Below, one piece after another: positions 37,306 through 51,832 of a stretch of DNA of 64,000 nt. The notes under the pieces were generated by a model. That model searched no databases and was not told where the DNA came from. It saw only the letters and a program-made list of their open reading frames with translations. The translations under genes were made by a program, and so were the position numbers. Source of the stretch: Micromonospora pallida (GTDB lineage: Bacteria; Actinomycetota; Actinomycetes; Mycobacteriales; Micromonosporaceae); NCBI RefSeq assembly GCF_900090325.1, contig NZ_FMHW01000002.1:310001-374000 (forward strand). The letters run 5' to 3'. How positions within the stretch are numbered: the stretch's first letter is position 1; each line of letters starts with the position of its first letter.

Positions 37306-38309
37306 CGCTCGGGCGGGCCGGTGGGGACCACGGCGACCGTGTCCGGTGGAGCGGGTTGGGCGGTCGTCGTCGCGGCAGGGGCCGGGGGCGTCCCGGAGGG
37401 CGCGAGTCGGGCCGTCTCGGCCAACGCGACCCCGAGCAGCACCAGGACGCCGCCGGTGAGCTGGGCGGCGTTGAGCGCCTCGGTCGTGCCGAGGGCCACC
37501 CAGGCGACCGCTGCGGCGAGCACCGGCTCGACCATGCCGACGATCCCGACGCTGGTCGCCGGCAGGTGCCGCATCGCCCCGGCCACCAGCAGGTACGGCG
37601 CCACCGAACCGAGCAGCACCACGTACCCGAGCAGCAGTGGAACCGGTACGCCCCCGCTGGTGCCGGCCAGCGGCGTCCAGTCGCCGATCCCGGTGAGCGC
37701 CCGGGTGAGCAGGCCGGCCACGGCGGCGGCCCCGAAGGCCCAGGTGCAGAGCGAGAGCGTGTCCCGCCCCTCGACCCCGCGCGCGCCGAACACGTAGTAG
37801 AGCGCGAGGAAGAACGCCGCCCCGATCCCGGCCAGCACGCCGAGACCGTCGAGCTTCGGGTCGCCCCAGACCTCGGCGACGCAGGCCAGCCCGATCAGGC
37901 TCAGGGCCAGGCCGGCCCAGAGCCGGGGTCGGACCGGGTGCCGCTGCCCGAACCGGGCCCAGAGGGCGACCAGCAGCGGGGCGGAGTACTCGAAGAGCAG
38001 GCCGATGCCGACCGGCAGTCGGGAGATGGCGACGAAGTAGAGCATCGGCACCAGGAAGAACCCGGTCAGCCCGTACGCGACGAGCAGCGGGACCTGCCCG
38101 ACGGTGACCCGTAGCCGGCGGGCGCCGGGGCGGAGCAGCAGGCTCAGCGCCAGCAGGACGGTGAACGCGCCGGCCGCGCGGAGCAGGGTGAGCTGGGGCG
38201 CGTCGATGCCGGCGCGGAGCACCAGCTTGGAGACGGTGCCGTTGACGGCGAAGAGGGCGCCCGAGGTGAGCACCATGGCGACACCGAGGGCGGGGCGGGG
38301 GTTGATCAC
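37299..38309 (-). CDS. DMT superfamily (EamA) transporter
   Basis: 336 aa with ten predicted helices in two EamA repeats (e.g. VLTSGALFAVNGTVSKLVL, LGVLAGIGAAFFLALYYVFG, LLGYVVLLGSVAPYLLVAGA), typical of RhtA-like metabolite exporters. The Pro/Ala/Thr-rich tail is not conserved. GTG at 38309 is preferred because a TAACCT box lies 7 nt upstream; ATG at 38342 would add 11 residues without support. It is divergent from the SOS locus. Substrate unknown; amino-acid or threonine/homoserine export is common in the family. Confidence 0.88.
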   Translation of the reverse strand: MINPRPALGVAMVLTSGALFAVNGTVSKLVLRAGIDAPQLTLLRAAGAFTVLLALSLLLRPGARRLRVTVGQVPLLVAYGLTGFFLVPMLYFVAISRLPVGIGLLFEYSAPLLVALWARFGQRHPVRPRLWAGLALSLIGLACVAEVWGDPKLDGLGVLAGIGAAFFLALYYVFGARGVEGRDTLSLCTWAFGAAAVAGLLTRALTGIGDWTPLAGTSGGVPVPLLLGYVVLLGSVAPYLLVAGAMRHLPATSVGIVGMVEPVLAAAVAWVALGTTEALNAAQLTGGVLVLLGVALAETARLAPSGTPPAPAATTTAQPAPPDTVAVVPTGPPERR

Positions 38310-38316
38310 GCCTGCG

Positions 38317-38322
38317 AGGTTA
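38317..38322 (-). promoter_or_regulatory. leaderless -10 box for the DMT transporter
   Basis: TAACCT on the minus strand, 7 nt before the GTG at 38309. Confidence 0.55.
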
Positions 38323-38386
38323 CCGAGGTCGGAGCGCGTCACACGTTGCGTTTTCGTCGGCGGCAGGGTGTACTGTCAGCAGTGGT

Positions 38387-38402
38387 TAGAACGGGTGTTC
38401 GA
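38387..38402 (+). promoter_or_regulatory. LexA (SOS) box
   Basis: TAGAACGGGTGTTCGA matches the actinobacterial LexA consensus (TCGAAC-N4-GTTCGA) at all but one position. A TACTGT -10 box lies just upstream (38371-38376), so bound LexA would sit at the transcription start. It precedes the HEPN-imuA'-imuB-dnaE2 genes. Confidence 0.85.
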
Positions 38403-38731
38403 TTGACTCGGGCGCCGGTTCCCACTGCCCGGGAGGGGTGTTTCGCGGCTCCGCTCCCGGGCCGGTGCGGTGCCGCGGACCGCACCGGGCACCGGGCAGT
38501 CGCGAGCCCGGTCCCGTCAAGGCAGGATCGTCGTCCGCCGCCCACGACCCCCGGGCGGCGGACGACGAACCCGCCGGTCAAGCCGGCCGGGTGTGGTGTG
38601 GGGAAGCGTCCACACCCGGCCGGCCGTCCCGGGTGCGTCTTCCTCCGCACCACCCAGACCAGGCCACGCCGCCGGGCGGAATCCGCCTCCGCCGGTGGCG
38701 TGGCCGCCTCGGCGACGCGGAGGAGACAGTC
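38403..38731 (+). other. long untranslated leader of the SOS operon
   Basis: About 330 nt between the LexA box and the first gene, with no convincing frame. It contains a nested hairpin: GGCCACGCC (38662-38670) pairs with GGCGTGGCC (38697-38705), with GGCGGA/TCCGCC inside. Confidence 0.5.
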
Positions 38732-39175
38732 ATGCCGTCCAACCCGGCACCCACGGTGCCCGCGCACGTGCTGCCGCACCGCACCCCGACCCAGCTTCTC
38801 GCCGTGGCCCGCCGTGGGCTGGCCGAGGCCGCGCAGACTCGTCCCGACGGCCTGCGCTACGCCGCCGCCCACCTGGCGGCGCTGCGCGCGGCGGCGGCCC
38901 TGCTGGCCGCCCGCGCCCGTCCCGCACCCGCCCGGCGCAACCGGATCACCAGTGTCTGGGTCTTGCTCGCCGGGGTCGCCCCCGAGCTGGGTGAGTGGGC
39001 CACCTTCTTCGCCGCCGGCGCCAGCAAGCGGGCCGCCGCAGAGGCCGGCATCCCCCGGGTGGTGACCGCCCGCGAGGCCGACGACCTGCTCCGCGCCGCC
39101 GAACAGTTCGTCGCGGTGGTGGAGACGACGCTCGGTCTGACGCACCAACCGGCCCTCGACGGGCTCGCCGCCTGA
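38732..39175 (+). CDS. SAV_6107-like HEPN domain protein
   Basis: 147 aa, all-helical. The central helices carry RYAAAH (Arg42 and His47), which fits the Rx4-6H motif of HEPN domains, the RNase-like fold common in toxins and antiviral systems. The flow AAAHLAALRAAAALLA and SVWVLLAGVAPELGEWATFF is as in the Streptomyces SAV_6107 family. ATG at 38732 follows GGAGGAG. It is the first gene after a LexA box and precedes the mutasome genes; its biochemical role is unknown. An accessory RNase or a structural helper of the mutasome is possible. Confidence 0.8.
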   Translation: MPSNPAPTVPAHVLPHRTPTQLLAVARRGLAEAAQTRPDGLRYAAAHLAALRAAAALLAARARPAPARRNRITSVWVLLAGVAPELGEWATFFAAGASKRAAAEAGIPRVVTAREADDLLRAAEQFVAVVETTLGLTHQPALDGLAA

Positions 39176-39208
39176 CCGGAGTCGGCCCTGACCGGGCCGG
39201 CCGCCGGG

Positions 39209-39235
39209 GCTGTCCGCACGTCGACTGCGGACAGC
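39209..39235 (+). terminator. hairpin between the HEPN gene and imuA'
   Basis: GCTGTCCGCA (39209-39218) pairs exactly with TGCGGACAGC (39226-39235). It could attenuate, terminate or process the transcript before imuA'. Confidence 0.5.
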
Positions 39236-39323
39236 TGGCGCATGTCGTCGACGGGCGGCGCGACCGGGCACGCGGGATGTCGCCACACCACTGATCCAGA
39301 ACGACACGACGGGGGGCTTGCCC

Positions 39324-40064
39324 ATGGCGGGCCGGATGGTGCTCGGTTCCGCCGCGCTGACCGATCTGGTCCGGCCGGCCAGCGCGTCCGACCCGGCGGG
39401 CGTCCAGCGGGTGCTGCCGGTCCTGCCCGAACTCACCGGGCTGCTGCCCAACCGGGGCCTGCGCCGGGGCAGCACGGTCTCGGTCGCCGCCGGCCAGCCC
39501 CGCCGCAGCGGCGGGACGTCCCTGATGCTGGCGCTGCTCGCCGAGGCGTCCCGGGCCGGCTCCTGGTGCGCCGTGGTCGGGGTGCCGGCCTTCGGCGCGG
39601 TGGCGGCGGCCGAGGCCGGTATCGCGTTGGACCGGCTCGCCCTGGTGCCCCATCCCGGTCCGGAGTGGCCCACCGTCGTCGCCGCCCTGATCGACGGGGT
39701 CGACGTGGTGGTCGCCGCGGTCCCCGCCACGGTCTCCGCCTCGGTCGCCAGCCGGCTGGCCGCCCGCGCCCGGCAGCGCGGCAGCGTCCTCGTCCCGTAC
39801 GGCCGGTGGGCGGGGGCCGACGTCACGTTGCAGGTGGTCCGGGGAACCTGGGAGGGGATCGGGCCGGGACGGGGCCGGCTCCGCCGGCGTGAGGTGACCG
39901 TCTCCGCGCGGGGCCGGGGCGCAGCGGCCCGGCCGAAGGAAATCACCGTGTGGCTTCCCGGTGACGGCCGTACCCGGGTCGTCCCCCGGTCCGCGACCGG
40001 CCGGCCGACCGCGCCCGCCGTGGCACCGCGACGGGGCCCGTTGACCCTGGTCGGTTCGGCGTGA
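39324..40064 (+). CDS. imuA': ImuA' RecA-like mutasome protein
   Basis: 246 aa, distantly RecA-like. GLLPNRGLRRGSTVSVAAGQ and the following GGTSLMLALLAEASRAG form a degenerate nucleotide-loop region; the rest is alpha/beta with WCAVVGVPAFGAVAAAEAG and DGVDVVVAAVP. It lacks a full Walker A. In mycobacteria ImuA' links ImuB and DnaE2 in the SOS mutasome. ATG at 39324 has G6 at 7 nt. It overlaps imuB by 4 nt (GTGA). Confidence 0.85.
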   Translation: MAGRMVLGSAALTDLVRPASASDPAGVQRVLPVLPELTGLLPNRGLRRGSTVSVAAGQPRRSGGTSLMLALLAEASRAGSWCAVVGVPAFGAVAAAEAGIALDRLALVPHPGPEWPTVVAALIDGVDVVVAAVPATVSASVASRLAARARQRGSVLVPYGRWAGADVTLQVVRGTWEGIGPGRGRLRRREVTVSARGRGAAARPKEITVWLPGDGRTRVVPRSATGRPTAPAVAPRRGPLTLVGSA

Positions 40065-41908
40065 CCCCAGCCTCCCCGCCAGCGCGTGCCGTGGACTCGC
40101 CGACTCGCGTCGCCCGGACCCTGCTGCTCTGGTGCCCGGACTGGCCGGTGATCGCCGCCGAGATCGTCGAGGGGGTGCCCGCCACCGGGGCGGTCGCCAT
40201 CCTGCACGCCAACCGGGTGGTCGCCTGCTCGGAACGCGCCCGTGCCGATGGCGTCCGGCGCGGCCTGCGCAGACGGGAGGCACAGGGTCGCTGTCCGGGG
40301 CTGACCGTGGTCGAGTACGACCCGTCGCGGGACGCCCGCGCGTTCGAGCCGGTGGTCGCCGCCGTGGAGGACCTGGTCGCCGGGGTGGAGGTGATCCGGC
40401 CCGGAGCCTGTGCGGTGGCTGCCCGGGGTCCGGCCCGGTATTTCGGCGGTGAGGAGGCGGCGGCCGAGCGGATCATCGAACATGTCGCCCAGACATGCGC
40501 GGTGGAGAGTCAGATCGGCATCGCCGACGGGACCTTCGCCGCCGGACTCGCCGCACGTACCGGACAGGTCGTGGCGCCCGGCGGCACCCCGGAGTTCCTC
40601 GCCGCCCTGCCGATCGAGGCGCTCGGCCGGCCGGCCCTGGCCGACCTGCTGCGCCGGCTCGGCATCCGGACGCTGGGCGACTTCGCCGCGCTCCCCGCCG
40701 GGGACGTGCTGGCCCGGTTCGGCTTCGACGCGGCGCTGGCCCACCGCCTCGCCGCCGGGCGGGACCACCGCCCGCTGGCCGTCCGGCAACCCCCGGCCGA
40801 CCTGACCGTCAGCACCGACTACGACGAGCCGCTCGACCGGGTCGACGCCGCCGCGTTCGCCGCCCGGGCGCTGGCCGAGCGGCTGCACGACCGGCTGACC
40901 GCGCACGGTCTGGCCTGCACCCGGCTCGGGGTCGAGGCGGTCACCGCGCACGGTCAGGAACTGCACCGGGTCTGGCGGCACGACGGGCTGCTCACCGCCA
41001 CGGCCATCGCCGACCGGCTGCGTTGGCAACTGGACGGCTGGCTCTCCGGTGGGGCCGCCCGGCCGGGCCGCCCCACCGCCGGGATCATCCGGTTGCGGCT
41101 GGTGCCGGACGGGGTGCTCGCCCAGGTCGGGTTGCAGCCCGGTCTCTGGGGCGGCACCGGCGAGGAACGCGAGCGGGCACACCGGGCGTTGAGCCGCGTG
41201 CAGGGCCTGCTCGGCCCGGAGTCGGTGGTGACCGCGGTGCTCGGCGGCGGACGTTCCCCGACCGACCAGGTCCACCTGGTGCCGTGGGGGGACGAGCGCC
41301 TTCCCGCGCGTCCCGGCGACCCGACCTGGCCCGCCGCCGACCATCCGACGGGTTCCGGTCCTGGCGACCCGGCCGGGCCCGCCGCCGGCCATCCGACGGG
41401 TTCCGGTTCCGGCGACCCGACCTGGCCCGTCGCCGAACGTCCGACGGGTTCCAGTCCCGACGGGGCGATCGGCCAGGTCGGCGTGCCGGCCGGTCAGTCG
41501 GGACGGGGATCGGGCTCGGGTGGCTGGTCGAAGGGCCACCGGGCGCGCCCGGGAGGCGCAACCCCGACGCGTCCCGAGCTGCCGCCGTGGCCGGGCCGGC
41601 TGCCACCACCCGCGCCGGCCGTGGTGCTGCCCGCCCCGCTCGCCGCGACCGTGCACGACGCCACCGGCGAGCCGGTCGGGGTCAGCGCCCGGCTCCAACT
41701 CACCGCCGCGCCGGCCCGGGTGGCCGTCGGCTCCGCCCCGCCGGTGGAGATCGTCGGCTGGGCCGGGCCGTGGCCGGTCGACGAACGATGGTGGGCCCCG
41801 GCCGAGGCCCGGCGGGCGGCCCGCTTCCAGTTCCTCCTCGCCGACGGTGCCGCCCTGCTGGTGGCGGTCGAGGCCGGCCAGTGGCTGGTGGAGGCGATCT
41901 ATGACTGA
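40061..41908 (+). CDS. imuB: ImuB, catalytically degenerate Y-family polymerase
   Basis: 615 aa. Y-family fold, but the palm acidic residues are lost: the opening reads LLLWCPDWPV instead of the D-x-D motif, and the usual S-x-D-E-A reads GACAVAARGPARYFG. This is as expected for ImuB, which acts as a clamp-binding hub bringing DnaE2 to lesions. The little-finger region and a long C-terminal tail follow; the tail contains three 16-aa repeats (48-bp units). It overlaps imuA' and is followed 99 nt later by dnaE2. Confidence 0.9.
   Translation: MTPASPPARAVDSPTRVARTLLLWCPDWPVIAAEIVEGVPATGAVAILHANRVVACSERARADGVRRGLRRREAQGRCPGLTVVEYDPSRDARAFEPVVAAVEDLVAGVEVIRPGACAVAARGPARYFGGEEAAAERIIEHVAQTCAVESQIGIADGTFAAGLAARTGQVVAPGGTPEFLAALPIEALGRPALADLLRRLGIRTLGDFAALPAGDVLARFGFDAALAHRLAAGRDHRPLAVRQPPADLTVSTDYDEPLDRVDAAAFAARALAERLHDRLTAHGLACTRLGVEAVTAHGQELHRVWRHDGLLTATAIADRLRWQLDGWLSGGAARPGRPTAGIIRLRLVPDGVLAQVGLQPGLWGGTGEERERAHRALSRVQGLLGPESVVTAVLGGGRSPTDQVHLVPWGDERLPARPGDPTWPAADHPTGSGPGDPAGPAAGHPTGSGSGDPTWPVAERPTGSSPDGAIGQVGVPAGQSGRGSGSGGWSKGHRARPGGATPTRPELPPWPGRLPPPAPAVVLPAPLAATVHDATGEPVGVSARLQLTAAPARVAVGSAPPVEIVGWAGPWPVDERWWAPAEARRAARFQFLLADGAALLVAVEAGQWLVEAIYD
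41315..41458 (+). repeat. three 48-bp in-frame repeats in imuB
   Basis: Units at 41315, 41363 and 41411 encode GDPTWPAADHPTGSGP-like 16-mers. They lie in the flexible C-terminal part and keep the reading frame. Confidence 0.9.
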
Positions 41909-42007
41909 TCGGAAAGTAGATCGTGGCGGGTTCGTGCCCCGGGAAGGGCCGGCGCCCACCACGATCGGGGGCGGCGGCCCTCACCTCCCGACGGGGAGCG
42001 GGGCGCG

Positions 42008-45000
42008 GTGAGCTTCCACAACCCGAAGCTGCCCTGGTCGGAGCTGGAGCGAGTGCCCTCCGGGCGGCCCGCCGGCGTCGGCCGTTCGGGGGAGCGGCAC
42101 CTGCACGTGGTGGACCCCCTCGCGGTCGACGGCGACGGCGGGGACGCCCCGGCCTGGACCCGGAAACGCCCGTACTACGAGGCACCCGAGCTGCCCCGCC
42201 CCGACGGCGTGGTGCCGTACGCGGAGCTGCACGCGCACACCAACTTCAGCTTCCTCGACGGGGCCAGCCACCCGGAGGAGCTGGCCGAGGAGGCGGCCCG
42301 GCTCGGGCTCACCGCGCTCGCCGTCACCGACCACGACGGCTTCTACGGGGTGGTCCGCTTCGCCGAGGCGGCCCGTGCCCTGCGGCTGCCCACCGTCGTC
42401 GGCGCGGAACTCTCCCTCGGCCTGCCCGCCCCGCAGAACGGTGAACCGGACCCGCTTGGTGCGCACCTGCTGCTGCTCGCGCACGGCCCTGAGGGGTACG
42501 CCCGGCTTGCCACCACCATCTCCCGGGCCCAGCTACGCGGCGGCGAGAAGGGCCGCCCGGACTACGGCGGGCTGGAGCAGGTCGCCGACGAACTGCGCGA
42601 CCACGTGCTGGTACTCACCGGCTGCCGCAAGGGGCACGTGCCGGCGGCCCTGCTCACCGAAGGTGTCGACGCCGCCGCCCGGGAGCTGGACCGGCTGACC
42701 GCCCTGTTCGGCGCGGACACGGTCGCGGTGGAGCTGACCGACCACGGGCACCCGGTCGACGCCGACCGTAACGACGCCCTCGCCGAGCTGGCCGCCGCCG
42801 CCGGCCTGCCCACGGTGGCCACCAACAACGTGCACTACGCGACGCCCGGCCGGCGCCGGCTGGCCACCGCGCTCGCCGCCGTACGGGCCCGGCGCAGCCT
42901 GGACGAGATCGACGGCTGGCTGCCCGCCGCCGGCACCGCGCACCTGCGCAGTGGGGCCGAGATGGCCGCCCGGTTCGCCGGGTACCCGGGTGCGGTGGCC
43001 CGGGCCGCCGAGTTCGGCCGGGAACTCGCCTTCGACCTGCACCTCGTCGCGCCGAAGCTGCCGGCGTACCCGGTGCCGGCCGGGCACACCGAGATGAGCT
43101 GGCTGCGGCACCTCACCGAGCAGGGCGCGCGGGAACGCTACGGGCCGCGCGCGGCACACCCCGAGGCGTACGCGCAACTCGACCACGAGCTGGACATGGT
43201 CGAGAAGCTCGGCTTCCCCGGCTACTTCCTGGTGGTCTACGACATCGTCACGTTCTGCCGGGAGCAGGACATCTACTGCCAGGGCCGGGGCTCGGCGGCC
43301 AACTCGGCGGTCTGCTACGCGCTGCGGATCACCAACGTGGACGCCGTCCGGCACCGGCTGCTCTTCGAACGTTTCCTCGCCCCCGAACGCGACGGCCCGC
43401 CCGACATCGACGTGGACATCGAGTCCGACCGCCGGGAGGAGGTCATCCAGCACGTCTACACCCGGTACGGCCGGGAGCACACCGCCCAGGTCGCCAACGT
43501 CATCTCGTACCGGCCCCGGTCGGCGGTGCGGGACGTGGCGAAGGCGTTCGGCTTCTCCCCGGGCCAGCAGGACGCCTGGAGCAAGCAGATCGACCGGTGG
43601 GGCGCGGTCGCCGCCGTCGACGCCGAGGGCATCCCCGAGCAGGTGGTGGCGTACGCCAACGAACTCCAGACCTTCCCCCGGCACCTCGGCATCCACTCCG
43701 GCGGCATGGTGATCTGCGACCGCCCGGTGATCGAGGTCTGCCCGGTGGAGTGGGGGCGGATGCCCGGCCGCAGCGTCCTCCAGTGGGACAAGGACGACTG
43801 CGCGGCGGTCGGCCTGGTCAAGTTCGACCTGCTCGGCCTCGGCATGCTGTCGGCCCTGCACTACGGGTACGACATGATCGGCATGAGCCTGGACCTGGGC
43901 GACATGTCGCTGGACGACCCCGAGGTGTACGACATGCTCTGCCGGGCCGACTCGGTCGGAGTGTTCCAGGTGGAGAGCCGCGCCCAGATGGCCACCCTGC
44001 CGAGGCTGAAACCCCGCTGCTTCTACGACCTGGTGGTCGAGGTGGCGCTGATCCGGCCCGGCCCGATCCAGGGCGGCTCGGTGCACCCGTACATCCGGCG
44101 CAAGAACGGCCACGAGCCGGTGACCTATCCGCACCCGCTGATGCGCAACGCGCTGGAGAAGACCCTCGGCGTACCGCTGTTCCAGGAGCAGCTCATGCAG
44201 CTCGCCATCGACCTGGCCGGCTTCGACGCGGCCGAGGCCGACCAGTTGCGCCGGGCGATGGGGGCGAAACGGTCGGCGGAACGGATGGCCCGGATCGCCG
44301 AGCGGCTCTACGCCGGCATGGCCGAGCGCGGCATCACCGGCGAGCTGGCCGAGGACGTCTATCGCAAGCTCTCCGCCTTCGCCAGCTACGGCTTCCCGGA
44401 GAGTCACGCGATGAGCTTCGCCTACCTGGTGTACGCCAGCTCCTGGCTCAAGCGCTACCACCCGGCCCCGTTCCTGGCCGCGCTGCTCAACGCCCAGCCG
44501 ATGGGCTTCTACTCGCCGCAGACCCTGGTCGAGGACGCCCGCCGGCACGGTGTCGAGGTGCGCCGCCCGGACGTCAACGCCAGCGGCGCGAAGGCCACCC
44601 TGGAGTCCACCCCGGGCACCCGGTGGGGGAGCGGGCCGGGGGAGCCCCCGCACGCCTGGGGGCTGGGCGGCCCGGCCGTCCGGCTGGGGCTGTCGGGTGT
44701 GCGTACCCTCGGCGACGGGGTGGCCGAGCGGATCGAGGCCGAACGGGCGGCGCACGGGGCGTACCGGGACATGCCGGATCTGGCCCGGCGGGTCGGTCTC
44801 ACCGCCGCGCAGCTCGAGGCCCTGGCCACCGCGGACGCCTTTGCCTGCTTCGGGTTGACCCGGCGGGAGGCGCTCTGGGCGGCCGGCGCGGCGGCTCAGG
44901 ACCGGCCCGGCCGGCTGCTCGGCACGGTGACCGGCGTGACCGCGCCCACCCTGCCCGGGATGGACGCGGTGGACCGGCTGGTCGCCGACGTCTGGGCGAC

Positions 45001-45373
45001 CGGTCTCTCCCCGGAGAGCCACCCGGCCCGCTTCCTCCGGGACCGGCTGGACGCGCTCGGCGCGGTGCCGATCGCCCGGCTCGGCCGGGTCGAACCCGGT
45101 CGGCGGATCCGGGTCGGCGGCATCGTCACCCACCGGCAGCGTCCCGCCACGGCCGGCGGGGTCACCTTCCTCAACCTCGAGGACGAGACCGGCATGCTGA
45201 ACGTGAGCTGCTCACCGGGCCTCTGGCAGCGCTACCGGCGGGTGGCGAAGACGAGCAGCGCCCTGGTGGTCCGGGGCATCCTGCACCGGCACGAGGGCGT
45301 CACCAGCCTCACCGCCGACCGCCTCGACCCGATCGACGCTCCGGTCACCCCCACCTCCCGCGACTTCCGCTGA
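42008..45373 (+). CDS. dnaE2: error-prone DNA polymerase DnaE2
   Basis: 1121 aa C-family replicative-type polymerase used for damage-induced mutagenesis. N-terminal PHP domain (YAELHAHTNFSFLDGASHPE, TDHDGFYGV); palm residues in FLAPERDGPPDIDVDIESDR and SRAQMATLPRLKPR; the OB domain is near the C-terminus (VGGIVTHRQRP). GTG at 42008 (VSFHNPKLPWSELERV) follows GGGGAGC. With imuA' and imuB it completes the mutasome controlled by the LexA box 3.6 kb upstream. Confidence 0.96.
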   Translation: MSFHNPKLPWSELERVPSGRPAGVGRSGERHLHVVDPLAVDGDGGDAPAWTRKRPYYEAPELPRPDGVVPYAELHAHTNFSFLDGASHPEELAEEAARLGLTALAVTDHDGFYGVVRFAEAARALRLPTVVGAELSLGLPAPQNGEPDPLGAHLLLLAHGPEGYARLATTISRAQLRGGEKGRPDYGGLEQVADELRDHVLVLTGCRKGHVPAALLTEGVDAAARELDRLTALFGADTVAVELTDHGHPVDADRNDALAELAAAAGLPTVATNNVHYATPGRRRLATALAAVRARRSLDEIDGWLPAAGTAHLRSGAEMAARFAGYPGAVARAAEFGRELAFDLHLVAPKLPAYPVPAGHTEMSWLRHLTEQGARERYGPRAAHPEAYAQLDHELDMVEKLGFPGYFLVVYDIVTFCREQDIYCQGRGSAANSAVCYALRITNVDAVRHRLLFERFLAPERDGPPDIDVDIESDRREEVIQHVYTRYGREHTAQVANVISYRPRSAVRDVAKAFGFSPGQQDAWSKQIDRWGAVAAVDAEGIPEQVVAYANELQTFPRHLGIHSGGMVICDRPVIEVCPVEWGRMPGRSVLQWDKDDCAAVGLVKFDLLGLGMLSALHYGYDMIGMSLDLGDMSLDDPEVYDMLCRADSVGVFQVESRAQMATLPRLKPRCFYDLVVEVALIRPGPIQGGSVHPYIRRKNGHEPVTYPHPLMRNALEKTLGVPLFQEQLMQLAIDLAGFDAAEADQLRRAMGAKRSAERMARIAERLYAGMAERGITGELAEDVYRKLSAFASYGFPESHAMSFAYLVYASSWLKRYHPAPFLAALLNAQPMGFYSPQTLVEDARRHGVEVRRPDVNASGAKATLESTPGTRWGSGPGEPPHAWGLGGPAVRLGLSGVRTLGDGVAERIEAERAAHGAYRDMPDLARRVGLTAAQLEALATADAFACFGLTRREALWAAGAAAQDRPGRLLGTVTGVTAPTLPGMDAVDRLVADVWATGLSPESHPARFLRDRLDALGAVPIARLGRVEPGRRIRVGGIVTHRQRPATAGGVTFLNLEDETGMLNVSCSPGLWQRYRRVAKTSSALVVRGILHRHEGVTSLTADRLDPIDAPVTPTSRDFR

Positions 45374-45454
45374 CCCACCTGATCGGCCCGGATGCGGCAG
45401 GGTTCGGCTTGCCGGGATTCGTGGCAGATCAGCTGCACGACACGCCGATCCCAG

Positions 45455-45508
45455 TACAGCGCAGCCGCACACTGATCTCGGTGCAGCGCAGCCACACACC
45501 GAACAGGC
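45455..45508. repeat. two 27-bp tandem repeats downstream of dnaE2
   Basis: 45455-45481 and 45482-45508 share (T)(A/G)CAGCGCAGCC(G/A)CACAC(T/C)GA. They lie in the 164-bp gap between the convergent dnaE2 and MFS genes. Confidence 0.7.
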
Positions 45509-45537
45509 GACACAACACACCGGGATCCCACCTCGGC

Positions 45538-46806
45538 TCAGGCGGTGACCGTTGCCGGGTCCTGCTGCCGTTGGTCTGATGGCGGTCGACCCATGGTGCG
45601 CCAGGGTCCTCCGAGCAGCGGCGTCAGGACGACGAGGAAGTAGCCGACGCCCACGGTGACGAGGATGGCGGTGGTGCCGACGTGGTCGCTGGCGAAGCCG
45701 GCGCTGAGCGCGCCGAGGGGGATGGCGGCCCAGGCGGCGGCGCCGATGACGCCGTAGACGCGGGCGCGCATGTGCGCCGGCACGCGTTCGAGTTTGACAG
45801 CGCCGATGAGCGGGTTGATGGCCCCGGCAGCGAGTCCGGCGATCGCGAAGACGGCCGCCTGCACGGGGAGGGGAAACCCGGCTGCCAGGCTCCAGAACGG
45901 TGGTGCCCCGCCCACGGCGAAGGCGGTGACGAAGGTGGCCCGTCGGGGCAGCCGGTGTCCGATGGCGCTGAACGCCAGGGAACCGACCAGGGCGCCGCCG
46001 CCCATGGTGCCGACCAGCAGGCCGAGGGCGGCCGCGCCGCCGAGTTCCCGTTGGGCGACCACCGGCAGCAGGACGTTGGACTTGGTGGCATCGAAGAAGT
46101 TGGTGACCAGCACGAGAAGGACCAGCGCGCGCAGCAGTGGTTCGGTGAGCAGGAAGCGTACGCCGGCGGCGAAGTCGTGCCAGTAGTTGCCGCCGTCGTC
46201 GGCGGTTCGTTCGGCCGGGCGTAGGGACGCCGAGACCAGGGCGGCGACGACGGCGGCGGAGACGGCGAACGTGGCGGCGTCGATGGCCAGCACGGTCAGC
46301 GATCCCAGCGCCGCGACCAGCAGGCCGGCGACCGGGGCGCCGATGAGGCGGGCGGCGCGTTCGGTTGCCTCGTACCAGCCGATCGCTCGTTCGAGTGGCA
46401 CGCCGGCCGCCGTGGCCGCCTCCGGCAGCAGCGCGTTGCGGGCTGTCTGGCCGGGGGTGTCGAGCAGTCCACTGGCGAACACCAGGACCAGCAGGGCCCA
46501 GAACGGCAGTCCGACGGTGGCGTCGAGCAGCGGAACAGCCCCGATGGTGACGCCGGACACCAGGTCGGCCATGATGCTGGCGCGGCGGTAGCCGATCCGG
46601 TCCACGACCACTCCGCCGAGGGCGCCACCGAGCACGATCGGCGCGGTGGCGACTGCCCCGGTGATGCCGGTGGCGGCCGCGGAGCCGGTTTCGGCCAGTA
46701 CGTAGAGCGGCAACGCGATGATGGTCAACATGTTGCCGGTCAGCGAGATGACGTGACCGATCAGCAAGCCCGCCAGTGGGCCGCGACGGCGTGGCGCGGC
46801 GCTCAC
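45538..46806 (-). CDS. MFS transporter
   Basis: 422 aa with twelve predicted helices (e.g. LAGLLIGHVISLTGNMLTII, VLGGALGGVVVDRIGYRRAS, VFASGLLDTPGQTARNALLP, AFSAIGHRLPRRATFVTAFA). It resembles the tetracycline/enterobactin-exporter-like MFS group often paired with ArsR-type regulators. GTG at 46806 overlaps the regulator stop by 4 nt (GTGA), so it is translated from the same message. Drug or metabolite export is likely; substrate unknown. Confidence 0.88.
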   Translation of the reverse strand: MSAAPRRRGPLAGLLIGHVISLTGNMLTIIALPLYVLAETGSAAATGITGAVATAPIVLGGALGGVVVDRIGYRRASIMADLVSGVTIGAVPLLDATVGLPFWALLVLVFASGLLDTPGQTARNALLPEAATAAGVPLERAIGWYEATERAARLIGAPVAGLLVAALGSLTVLAIDAATFAVSAAVVAALVSASLRPAERTADDGGNYWHDFAAGVRFLLTEPLLRALVLLVLVTNFFDATKSNVLLPVVAQRELGGAAALGLLVGTMGGGALVGSLAFSAIGHRLPRRATFVTAFAVGGAPPFWSLAAGFPLPVQAAVFAIAGLAAGAINPLIGAVKLERVPAHMRARVYGVIGAAAWAAIPLGALSAGFASDHVGTTAILVTVGVGYFLVVLTPLLGGPWRTMGRPPSDQRQQDPATVTA

Positions 46807-48633: not shown

Positions 48634-49395
48634 GTGGAGCAGACACGAGGCCGGTTCACCGGGCCGCCGCTGACCCCCCGTACCGCCGTCATCTGGTCGG
48701 TGCTCCAGGCCGAGCTGGACCGGCGCGGCGACGCGGAGCTGACCGTGCTCGACGTGGGCGGCGGCACCGGCGGCTTCGCCGTACCGCTGGCCCACGCAGG
48801 ACACCGGGTGACCGTCGTCGACGCCAGCCCGGACGCGCTCGCCGCGCTGACCCGCCGGGCCGCCGAGGCCGGCGTCGGTGGTCGGGTGCACGCGGTGCAG
48901 GGCGACGGCGACGCGCTCGCCGACCTGGTCGAGCCGGCCAGCGTCGACCTGGTGCTCTGTCACGCCGTCCTCGAGGTGGTGGACGACCCGGCGCCGGTGG
49001 TGACCGCGCTGGCCGCCGCACTGCGGCCCGGCGGCGCGGCGAGCGTGCTGGTCGCCGGGCGGGCCGCCGCGGTGCTCGGCCGGGCGATGAACGGCCACCT
49101 CGCCGCCGCGGCCACCCTCGCCGTCGACCCGTCCGGCAGCGCCGGCCCCCGGGACACCCTGCGCCGACGGTACGACGCCGACGGCGCCACCGCGCTGCTA
49201 CGCGCCGCCGGGCTCGCCGTCGAGGAGATCCACGGGGTACGCGTCCTCGCCGACCTGCTCCCCGCAGCGGTCGCGGACGGTCAACCGGCCGCCCTGCTGG
49301 AGCTGGAACGGGCACTGGCGGCCCAGCCGCCCTACCGCGACCTCGCCGCCCAGCTGCACCTCTTCGCTCGCCGACCCGGCCCGCTCCCGGCATGA
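48634..49395 (+). CDS. class I SAM-dependent methyltransferase
   Basis: 253 aa. Motif I is VLDVGGGTGGFAVPLA near residue 35, followed by VTVVDASPDALAAL (acidic ribose-binding residue) and motif post-II VLCHAVLEVVDDPAP. The C-terminal part has LRRRYDADGATALLRAAG. Similar to SmtA/UbiE-like actinobacterial enzymes; the substrate is not identifiable. It overlaps the phosphodiesterase gene by 4 nt (ATGA), so the two are probably functionally linked. Confidence 0.9.
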   Translation: MEQTRGRFTGPPLTPRTAVIWSVLQAELDRRGDAELTVLDVGGGTGGFAVPLAHAGHRVTVVDASPDALAALTRRAAEAGVGGRVHAVQGDGDALADLVEPASVDLVLCHAVLEVVDDPAPVVTALAAALRPGGAASVLVAGRAAAVLGRAMNGHLAAAATLAVDPSGSAGPRDTLRRRYDADGATALLRAAGLAVEEIHGVRVLADLLPAAVADGQPAALLELERALAAQPPYRDLAAQLHLFARRPGPLPA

Positions 49396-50572: not shown

Positions 50573-51832
50573 ATGGGGCGTAGCCAGTCGTTGCCACGCG
50601 GGGGTGATCCGCGTTTCGGTCCCGACGCCGACGACACCGGCTGCCCGATCCTGCACGTCGACATGGATGCCTTCTTCGCGTCCGTGGAGGTCCGTCACCG
50701 CCCCGAGCTGCGCGGGCGGCCGGTGGTGGTCGGCGGCATCGGCCCGCGCGGCGTGGTCAGCTCCGCCAGCTACCCCGCCCGGCGGTACGGGGTCCGCAGC
50801 GCGATGCCCACCGCACGGGCCCGTTCCCTCTGCCCGCACGCGGTCTTCCTCCCGCCGGACTTCCCGGCCTACTCGGCGGCGTCCCGGGCGGTGATGCAGA
50901 TCTTCCGGGACGTCACGCCGCTGGTCGAACCGCTCTCCCTGGACGAGGCGTTCCTCGACGTGGCCGGCGCGCGGCGCCTCTTCGGTCGCCCGGCCGAGAT
51001 CGCCCGGCTGATCCGGACCCGGGTCGCCGAGGAGCAGGGGCTGACCTGCTCGGTCGGCGTGGCGCCGACGAAGTTCGTGGCCAAGCTCGGCTCCACCCGG
51101 GCCAAGCCGGACGGGATGCTCGTGGTCCCCGCCAACCGGGTGCTGGACTTCCTCCATCCGCTGCCGGTGGACGCGCTCTGGGGCGTCGGTGAGCGCTCCG
51201 CGGCGACCCTGCGCCGGCTCGGCCTGGCCACCATCGGCGACCTCGCCGAGGCCCCGACGGGCATGCTGCGCCGGGCGGTGGGGGAGGCCGCCGCCAGCCA
51301 CCTGCACGAGTTGGCGCACGGGCGGGATCCGCGCGGGGTCAGCCCCGAACAGGTGGAGAAGTCCATCGGCGCGGAGACCACCTTCGACACCGATGTGGAC
51401 GACCCCCGGCAGATCCGGCGGGCGCTGCTCGCCCTGGCCGAGAAGGCGGGTTCCCGGCTACGCCGGGCCGGTCAGGTGGGGCGGACGGTCTCGCTCAAGG
51501 TGCGGCTGGCCGACTTCACCCTGGTCAGCCGGTCCCGCACCCTGGGCACGCCGACCGACGTCACACGGGAGATATTCGACACGGTCTGGGCGCTTTACGC
51601 CGCCCTCGAACCGGGGCAACTCATTCGGTTGGTGGGCGTACGGGTCGAGGGGCTCAGTGCCGCCGAGACCACCCCGAGGCAGCTCGCCCTCGGTGCTCCC
51701 GAGCACGGATGGCGTGAGGCGGAAGCGGCCGCGGACGCCGCTGCTGCCCGTTTCGGGCGGTCCGTCATAGGTCCGGCGAGTCTTCTGGAGGGCCGCGATC
51801 AGCGTCGACGTGAAAATCCGCGCCACCCATAG
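50573..51832 (+). CDS. dinB: DNA polymerase IV
   Basis: Y-family translesion polymerase, 419 aa. Catalytic acids intact: HVDMDAFFASVE (D-x-D) and LSLDEAFLDVAG (S-x-D-E-A). Helix-hairpin-helix thumb TLRRLGLATIGDLA and little finger EKSIGAETTFDTDVDD are present. A ~20-residue N-terminal extension precedes the palm. It contrasts with imuB, 9 kb upstream, which has lost these residues. Lack of a LexA box suggests constitutive expression. Confidence 0.95.
   Translation: MGRSQSLPRGGDPRFGPDADDTGCPILHVDMDAFFASVEVRHRPELRGRPVVVGGIGPRGVVSSASYPARRYGVRSAMPTARARSLCPHAVFLPPDFPAYSAASRAVMQIFRDVTPLVEPLSLDEAFLDVAGARRLFGRPAEIARLIRTRVAEEQGLTCSVGVAPTKFVAKLGSTRAKPDGMLVVPANRVLDFLHPLPVDALWGVGERSAATLRRLGLATIGDLAEAPTGMLRRAVGEAAASHLHELAHGRDPRGVSPEQVEKSIGAETTFDTDVDDPRQIRRALLALAEKAGSRLRRAGQVGRTVSLKVRLADFTLVSRSRTLGTPTDVTREIFDTVWALYAALEPGQLIRLVGVRVEGLSAAETTPRQLALGAPEHGWREAEAAADAAAARFGRSVIGPASLLEGRDQRRRENPRHP

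Follow-up and report, generated by a model that had tools for sequence, protein, structure and literature searches.

HEPN_SAV_6107 in Actinomycetes: a predicted SOS gene with a conserved leader RNA and varying downstream neighbours, among them the mutasome

In the stretch of the Micromonospora pallida genome analysed here (64,000 nucleotides, positions 310,001 to 374,000 of contig NZ_FMHW01000002.1; hereafter the window), a LexA (SOS) box, a gene for a HEPN_SAV_6107 protein and the genes imuA', imuB and dnaE2 follow one another in a single direction. By comparison with other loci, the HEPN gene appears to be a conserved SOS gene that is preceded by a conserved leader RNA, the mutasome being one among several downstream neighbours. 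The features of the locus, in window coordinates, are as follows.

38387..38402, + strand: LexA (SOS) box TAGAACGGGTGTTCGA, with the exact GAACN4GTTC core and 11 of the 12 consensus bases
38403..38731, + strand: putative structured leader RNA, from the LexA box to the HEPN start codon (folding energy, 22-sequence alignment, covariance-model searches)
38529..38567, + strand: leader hairpin A, with the loop ACGACCCCC at 38544-38552 as a variant form of TCGACCC, the loop seen in other families
38582..38625, + strand: leader hairpin B, with the loop core TGGGGAAG at 38599-38606
38632..38651, + strand: third leader hairpin, presenting CTTCCTCC at 38639-38646, nearly invariant in 22 leaders
38719..38726, + strand: Shine-Dalgarno sequence GGAGGAGA for HEPN, unchanged in all aligned leaders
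38732..39175, + strand: HEPN_SAV_6107 protein, 147 amino acids (PF18726, 124 bits against a cut-off of 27.2)
39318..40064, + strand: imuA' (NF058630 repair_Rv3395c, 180 bits, cut-off 65)
40061..41908, + strand: imuB, Y-family-like (PF00817 IMS domain)
42008..45373, + strand: dnaE2, error-prone polymerase (NF004225, 1526 bits, cut-off 939)

The profile matches agree with an earlier sequence-only reading of this locus, which had named a near-consensus LexA box followed by a SAV_6107-like HEPN gene, imuA', imuB and dnaE2, and the last three genes make up an ImuA'-ImuB-DnaE2 mutasome. The mutasome of the DnaE2A type (NAR 2026 gkag133, PMC12926913) has the same gene order and is LexA-controlled; the difference is that here the HEPN gene is the promoter-proximal cistron, and the word HEPN is absent from the main text of that paper. 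A divergent gene for an EamA transporter begins 45 base pairs (bp) from the box. A promoter and terminator scan of positions 38200-45700 gave no site.

In a survey of 296 Actinomycetes genomes, HEPN_SAV_6107 was found in 198 genomes and 81 of 105 genera, nearly always as a single copy. From about 150 listed places among the 198 genomes, 107 stretches were drawn, spread by hand over the genera, and compared together with the window (108 loci in 29 families, labelled f1, f2, f4 and so on; f1 is taken to be Micromonosporaceae and f4 Streptomyces). Named loci were also compared: 80 for the presence of EamA, 20 of Streptomyces, and 43 HEPN-imu loci that have at least 800 bp upstream. In many families, HEPN shares a neighbourhood with metF, a phytoene-desaturase-like gene, a CmoM-like methyltransferase gene and dinB, and within Micromonosporaceae the gene is under purifying selection (the ratio of nonsynonymous to synonymous substitution rates, dN/dS, is 0.12-0.25 in 12 comparisons against the window). 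The single copy, wide spread, shared neighbourhood and purifying selection together argue for a settled chromosomal gene rather than a mobile toxin. In the window, the CmoM-like methyltransferase and DinB genes lie at 48634-49395 and 50573-51832, some kilobases (kb) downstream of HEPN; both are companions of HEPN in many families.

The box of the window is weak evidence by itself, since the genome contains 50 sites with at most one mismatch to the LexA consensus (TCGAACN4GTTCGA, scored over 12 bases), compared with 15 for the reversed control; the weight for LexA control therefore comes from the comparison across loci. Of the 108 loci, 88 have a box with at least 11 of the 12 bases in the 1 kb before the HEPN domain, where the site frequency in the remainder of these loci would predict 0.85; eight control palindromes reach 0 or 1 locus each. 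Three of the 20 misses (L101, L110, L113) have perfect 12/12 boxes 1.15-1.56 kb upstream, and the remaining 17 fall into f4 (15 loci) and f2 (two loci, with 10/12 sites), so that the box precedes HEPN in 91 of 91 loci of the other 27 families. With an upstream box conserved across species, HEPN is a predicted member of the LexA regulon, and most of the named Micromonosporaceae loci have a box of the same type, as a rule 300-450 bp ahead of HEPN. A second LexA-like box (11/12), about 21 bp past the first, is found in named Micromonospora loci (e.g. L185, L187, L192).

The box is also present where HEPN has no polymerase neighbour, in loci of f59, f61 and f63. In the f59 locus and in one f61 locus, HEPN is followed by a gene that reads in the other direction, which leaves HEPN as the sole downstream customer of the box, and the single DnaE of the f61 genome G188 is DnaE1. 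Across loci, then, the LexA box appears to go with HEPN, with or without a polymerase gene nearby, and the comparison shows HEPN_SAV_6107 as a probable settled DNA-damage-response gene of Actinomycetes with a LexA promoter of its own.

When imuA' lies away from HEPN (20 loci, picked by hand from the 128 over the cut-off), it tends to have its own box, with at least 11/12 bases within about 1.5 kb in 17 of the 20 loci; the other three reach 10/12. In the HEPN-imu loci, the interval from HEPN to imuA' is free of sites that score 10/12 or more (12 of 12 sampled loci and 43 of 43 named ones), and a box of at least 11/12 precedes HEPN in 40 of the 43 named loci, with L215, L217 and L223 as the misses. 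With a sole box before HEPN and none between HEPN and imuA', the HEPN promoter would, by sequence, be the SOS promoter of the mutasome in this lineage. In the window, HEPN accordingly reads as the first gene of an SOS mutasome operon for which no LexA box other than the one before HEPN was found. The earlier claim that HEPN is under LexA control together with the mutagenic polymerase is in this respect well supported, both by the boxed loci outside f4 and f2 and by the promoter apparently shared here.

One could object that HEPN is a passenger in a conserved housekeeping neighbourhood and that the box serves its neighbours, given the synteny with metF, the phytoene-desaturase-like gene, the methyltransferase gene and dinB, and given the closeness of EamA, which lies close upstream in seven of the 80 named loci. 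However, EamA is missing from the stretch in 69 of these loci, while most named loci retain the box, the genes upstream of HEPN differ from family to family, and dN/dS is low (0.12-0.25); this explanation is very improbable. EamA in particular is unlikely to be the owner of the box, being in the stretch in only 11 of the 80 named loci, while 40 of the 43 named imu loci keep the box.

The genes that follow HEPN vary. The imuA'-imuB-dnaE2 genes adjoin it in 12 of the 108 loci (3 of 3 in f1, 9 of 12 in f62), so that mutasome adjacency, as the sequence-only reading would have it, does not hold as a general rule: most HEPN genes are away from imuA', and it is the box that travels with HEPN. In 40 loci, HEPN is followed by a divergent DnaE with 29-36% identity to DnaE2 (e.g. 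L022, L092, L117). Either arrangement is seen in 52 loci and neither in 55; the one remaining locus, L071 (f62), has a short dnaE2 remnant after HEPN, and its genome has no ImuA' over the cut-off. The divergent DnaE sequences group together in a clade distinct from both DnaE1 and DnaE2 (24 sequences, support 0.989; the L144 row, read in a wrong frame, was disregarded), with the second DnaE of one f4 genome as sister. Ten genomes with the divergent DnaE, searched for all DnaE copies, yielded one DnaE1 each and no DnaE2. ImuA' passes the cut-off in 0 of the 40 genomes with the divergent DnaE compared with 39 of the 68 others (p = 4e-11, uncorrected for relatedness).

A DnaE2B has been described in genomes that lack ImuA and ImuB, some of them with a stand-alone ImuB-C (gkag133, in the passages available). 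The divergent clade fits this DnaE2B and, going by the published description, is probably the same. Shared with the DnaE2B-[ImuB-C] module are a divergent DnaE in the absence of ImuA' and, in many loci, a small open reading frame (ORF) before HEPN; the difference is that here HEPN sits between the small ORF and DnaE, and HEPN goes unmentioned in the available description of the module. The small ORF encodes DUF6504 (PF20114); in many DnaE2B-like loci (e.g. L043, L100, L109) it lies between the LexA box and HEPN and ends shortly before the latter, and a strict pattern finds it in 29 of the 108 loci. That DUF6504 is the stand-alone ImuB-C of the published module is a guess. Comparison of profiles for DUF6504 and the C-termini of ImuB did not bear it out: all settings tried gave probabilities under 2%, with no similarity (the first comparison contained a wrong-frame row, L079; the second used 49 ImuB C-termini found by regular expression).

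The frequent polymerase neighbours raise the possibility that HEPN is a protein subunit of translesion complexes, binding RecA, DinB, DnaE2 or the clamp, with no role for RNA other than tuning of dosage by the leader. A DnaE2B-like gene or the imu genes adjoin HEPN in the proportions given above, and in many families the gene for polymerase IV (Pol IV) belongs to the same cluster. Against this stand the f59, f61 and f63 loci, which have no polymerase gene beside HEPN and include those where the next gene is on the opposite strand, as well as G188 with its DnaE1 only; the subunit explanation is possible but rather less probable than the one favoured below.

Between the box and the HEPN start codon lie 329 nucleotides with a predicted minimum free energy of -230.5 kcal/mol, compared with a mean of -182.2 (standard deviation 5.6) for 100 shuffled sequences (z -8.65). 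This leader is kept across 22 Micromonosporaceae sequences, with runs of invariant bases, and RNAalifold predicts 66 pairs in their alignment, eight of which changed on both sides. A covariance model, R1, finds the element in 24 of the 25 genomes of the window genus and in 0 of the 16 other genomes of the order; a second match in the window genome is the antisense of the same place. R1 also matches before HEPN in Dactylosporangium L198, where no imuA' was found beside HEPN on a contig that ends about 1 kb past the gene; a match in Rhizocola L239 (48 bits) was left out of the counts because it overlaps the start of the HEPN gene.

Beyond Micromonosporaceae, hairpins A and B recur with the same loops and different stems. 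Hairpin B (loop GGGGAAG) is present in 27 of the 108 loci, belonging to 11 of the 29 families, with 0.45 expected, and hairpin A, when tightly defined by the loop TCGACCC and a stem no shorter than 10, in 26 loci, likewise of 11 families, with 0.10 expected; a looser definition of A gives 31 loci with 4.0 expected and includes at least one likely chance match, in f4. The loop letters that define these searches came from a listing of hairpins made without regard to the loops. For hairpin C (loop TCGCGG), the enrichment is lower, 18 loci against 4.65 expected, and no claim is made for it. In the 20 separate imuA' loci, hairpin B is found in none and A in one, weakly.

In the hairpin alignments (A7, A8), both-side changes are seen in 9 of 11 pairs of B and in 11 of 11 pairs of A, far above slid and shuffled controls. 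Because the rows were picked for loop and pairing, these counts are biased towards structure, and a fairer control is the enrichment relative to the remaining loci. In rows selected on Watson-Crick pairs alone, G-U cells outnumber A-C cells 38 to 12, and 40 other non-Watson-Crick cells are neither; the excess of G-U argues for an RNA of the HEPN strand. A second model, R2, matches in 14 of 148 genomes, once each and always upstream of HEPN on the HEPN strand, with four genomes from outside the model (G185, G205, G218, G275) among them. This model is insensitive, f61 being one of the known hairpin carriers that it misses.

Rfam has no match at gathering score in window positions 38200-45700 or in the leaders of seven other loci, where the sole match is a thiamine pyrophosphate (TPP) riboswitch elsewhere in L046; with E up to 1, there are seven matches only, all far below the gathering scores. 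No description of an actinobacterial leader RNA of this kind was found in the open-access literature. Taken across loci, the comparisons support a real leader RNA with tandem hairpins that is not covered by Rfam. In the 22 Micromonosporaceae leaders, the loop of the third hairpin, CTTCCTCC, is complementary, as judged by eye, to the Shine-Dalgarno sequence and to loop B, so that this hairpin might act as a switch.

The HEPN protein belongs to the SAV_6107 family of the HEPN superfamily by profile match and by its four-helix HEPN fold. The sequence-only reading had pointed to an Rx4H motif, Arg42 and His47, and to RNA cleavage. The residues are real and nearly invariant (R42 in 106 of the 108 loci, H47 in 104), as are R52 and R100; the motif assignment fails, in that profile alignment places R42 and H47 in helix 2, with R100-AAA-E104 at the canonical motif position, where the Tyr that follows the motif in other HEPN proteins is lost. 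R42-x4-H47 is accordingly rejected as the HEPN catalytic motif, and no Rx4-6H stands at the canonical RNase position. H47 is replaced by Tyr in f2 and f49 and by Gln in one f6 locus, and E104 varies in 18 of the 108 loci. An Arg-rich loop has 5.8 Arg or Lys per 16.6 residues, compared with 14% over the domain. Table 1 of the 2013 survey by Anantharaman (PMC3710099) lists the family, as HEPN-M SAV_6107, among actinobacterial ones, with Rx4-6H not conserved and no operon; DNA-damage control, polymerase neighbours and a leader RNA do not figure in the passages available. Foldseek gave no match with E below 0.001, and a profile search against solved structures gave none with the larger alignment (A3) and 2hsb at E 0.048 with the smaller one (A2).

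These data bear on the proposal that HEPN is a damage-induced RNase that cuts RNA and arrests growth, with LexA repression, perhaps together with the leader RNA, in place of an antitoxin. The fold, the near-invariant R42, H47, R52 and R100 and the Arg-rich loop would suit such an enzyme, and other HEPN RNases pair with RNAs, as AbiF does with RCd22 (PMC12373285, in the passages available). The likeness to AbiF lies in a HEPN-fold protein encoded behind a structured RNA (abiF RNA, RF03085); AbiF, according to the same passages, differs in belonging to another HEPN family and to a phage-borne type III-like toxin-antitoxin system, and Rfam detects no abiF motif at the window or at the other loci checked. 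In type III-like systems such as ToxIN and AbiF, a structured RNA lies directly upstream of the toxin gene; here a structured RNA precedes HEPN, ten families show neither hairpin, and the window has no terminator-like site and no repeat array of the antitoxin kind, a 17-bp tract of 7-bp units being all that was found. HEPN-MNT pairs have a homologous fold (the MNT-linked HEPN aligns with SAV_6107 at E 7e-7) and the canonical RN-x2-DY, compared with R-AAA-E in SAV_6107. No adjacent nucleotidyltransferase antitoxin is seen in the window, where the neighbours of HEPN are EamA and imuA', and in the surveyed gene clusters a nucleotidyltransferase accompanies only MNT-type HEPN loci (L027-L032); nor does any other antitoxin-like neighbour adjoin HEPN in the window or in these clusters. 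With the displaced motif, the replaced residues and the nearly constant single copy as well, the RNase proposal is unlikely.

The reading favoured here, with a probability of roughly one half, is that HEPN acts as an accessory factor, induced by damage and adjusted through its leader RNA, and not as a classical RNase toxin; the biochemical function is the presumptive part of it. Cleavage of LexA would open the HEPN promoter, and the transcript would start with the structured leader, which would set the translation of the first gene; in Micromonosporaceae, the GGAGGAGA ribosome site and the hairpin B loop GGGGAAG would perhaps be alternative pairing partners of the CTTCCTCC loop. The HEPN protein, whose four-helix bundle has an Arg-rich loop and a non-standard motif, would then serve as a nucleic-acid-binding accessory of damage-tolerant synthesis by the mutasome, DnaE2B or Pol IV rather than as a free-standing RNase toxin, and in this genome co-transcription with imuA'-imuB-dnaE2 would tie its dose to that of the mutasome.

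Several observations weigh against this reading. In f4, the best LexA site within 2 kb is 10/12, with none at 11/12, an 11/12 box precedes HEPN in only 1 of the 20 named Streptomyces loci, and 'HEPN' is absent from the available main text of a LexA study in S. venezuelae (PMC9380542). In favour of the reading, TGTCRGTG is present where the box is absent (f4 15/15, f2 2/2, named Streptomyces 20/20); it is the core of tTGTCRgtg-8-TannnT, given in passages of PMC5656591 as the consensus for LexA-independent damage genes, and might provide damage control in these families. The same half-motif, found in 41 of the 108 loci, also stands beside the box in f61 (10/11), f63 (6/8) and f68 (5/10), and the full PafBC-type consensus is present in only 5 of the 108 loci, so that such a promoter is no more than a suggestion. 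Genomes that lack DnaE2 or ImuA' still have HEPN, so that the pattern does not demand a mutasome-specific role, and some carriers of ImuA' (e.g. g2) are without HEPN. Ten of the 29 families (f2, f5, f50, f58, f60, f62, f63, f64, f69, f74) have neither hairpin, which indicates that the leader RNA is dispensable, and f4 shows one weak match to hairpin A only. The near-invariant R42, H47, R52 and R100 would also fit a rewired active site, and a search of the open-access literature found no biochemical or expression data on HEPN_SAV_6107.

A more tentative reading, slightly less probable than the subunit explanation, is a chromosomal SOS RNA-protein module in which the hairpin-loop RNA is the specific partner and regulator of HEPN, holding it in check or loading it; damage might then set free an activity that binds or cuts RNA, in time with error-prone synthesis, and the module might correspond to the HEPN-RNA pairs of phage defence in a domesticated form under LexA control. 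If true, there would be a HEPN protein outside phage defence with a structured RNA of its own, and the superfamily would be read differently.

The comparison adds a widespread, overlooked gene, as a probable member, to the DNA-damage response of actinobacteria, where it accompanies one or the other of two mutagenesis systems that exclude each other or occurs with neither, and a strongly covarying leader RNA outside all Rfam families; gene and leader bear on how actinobacteria time mutagenesis. In titles, abstract openings and passages of the open-access literature, no description links HEPN_SAV_6107 with SOS or LexA, or with imuB or dnaE2. In all three f63 loci inspected (L047, L081, L085), a conserved gene of about 300-320 codons follows on the same strand, 130-190 bp after the HEPN domain.

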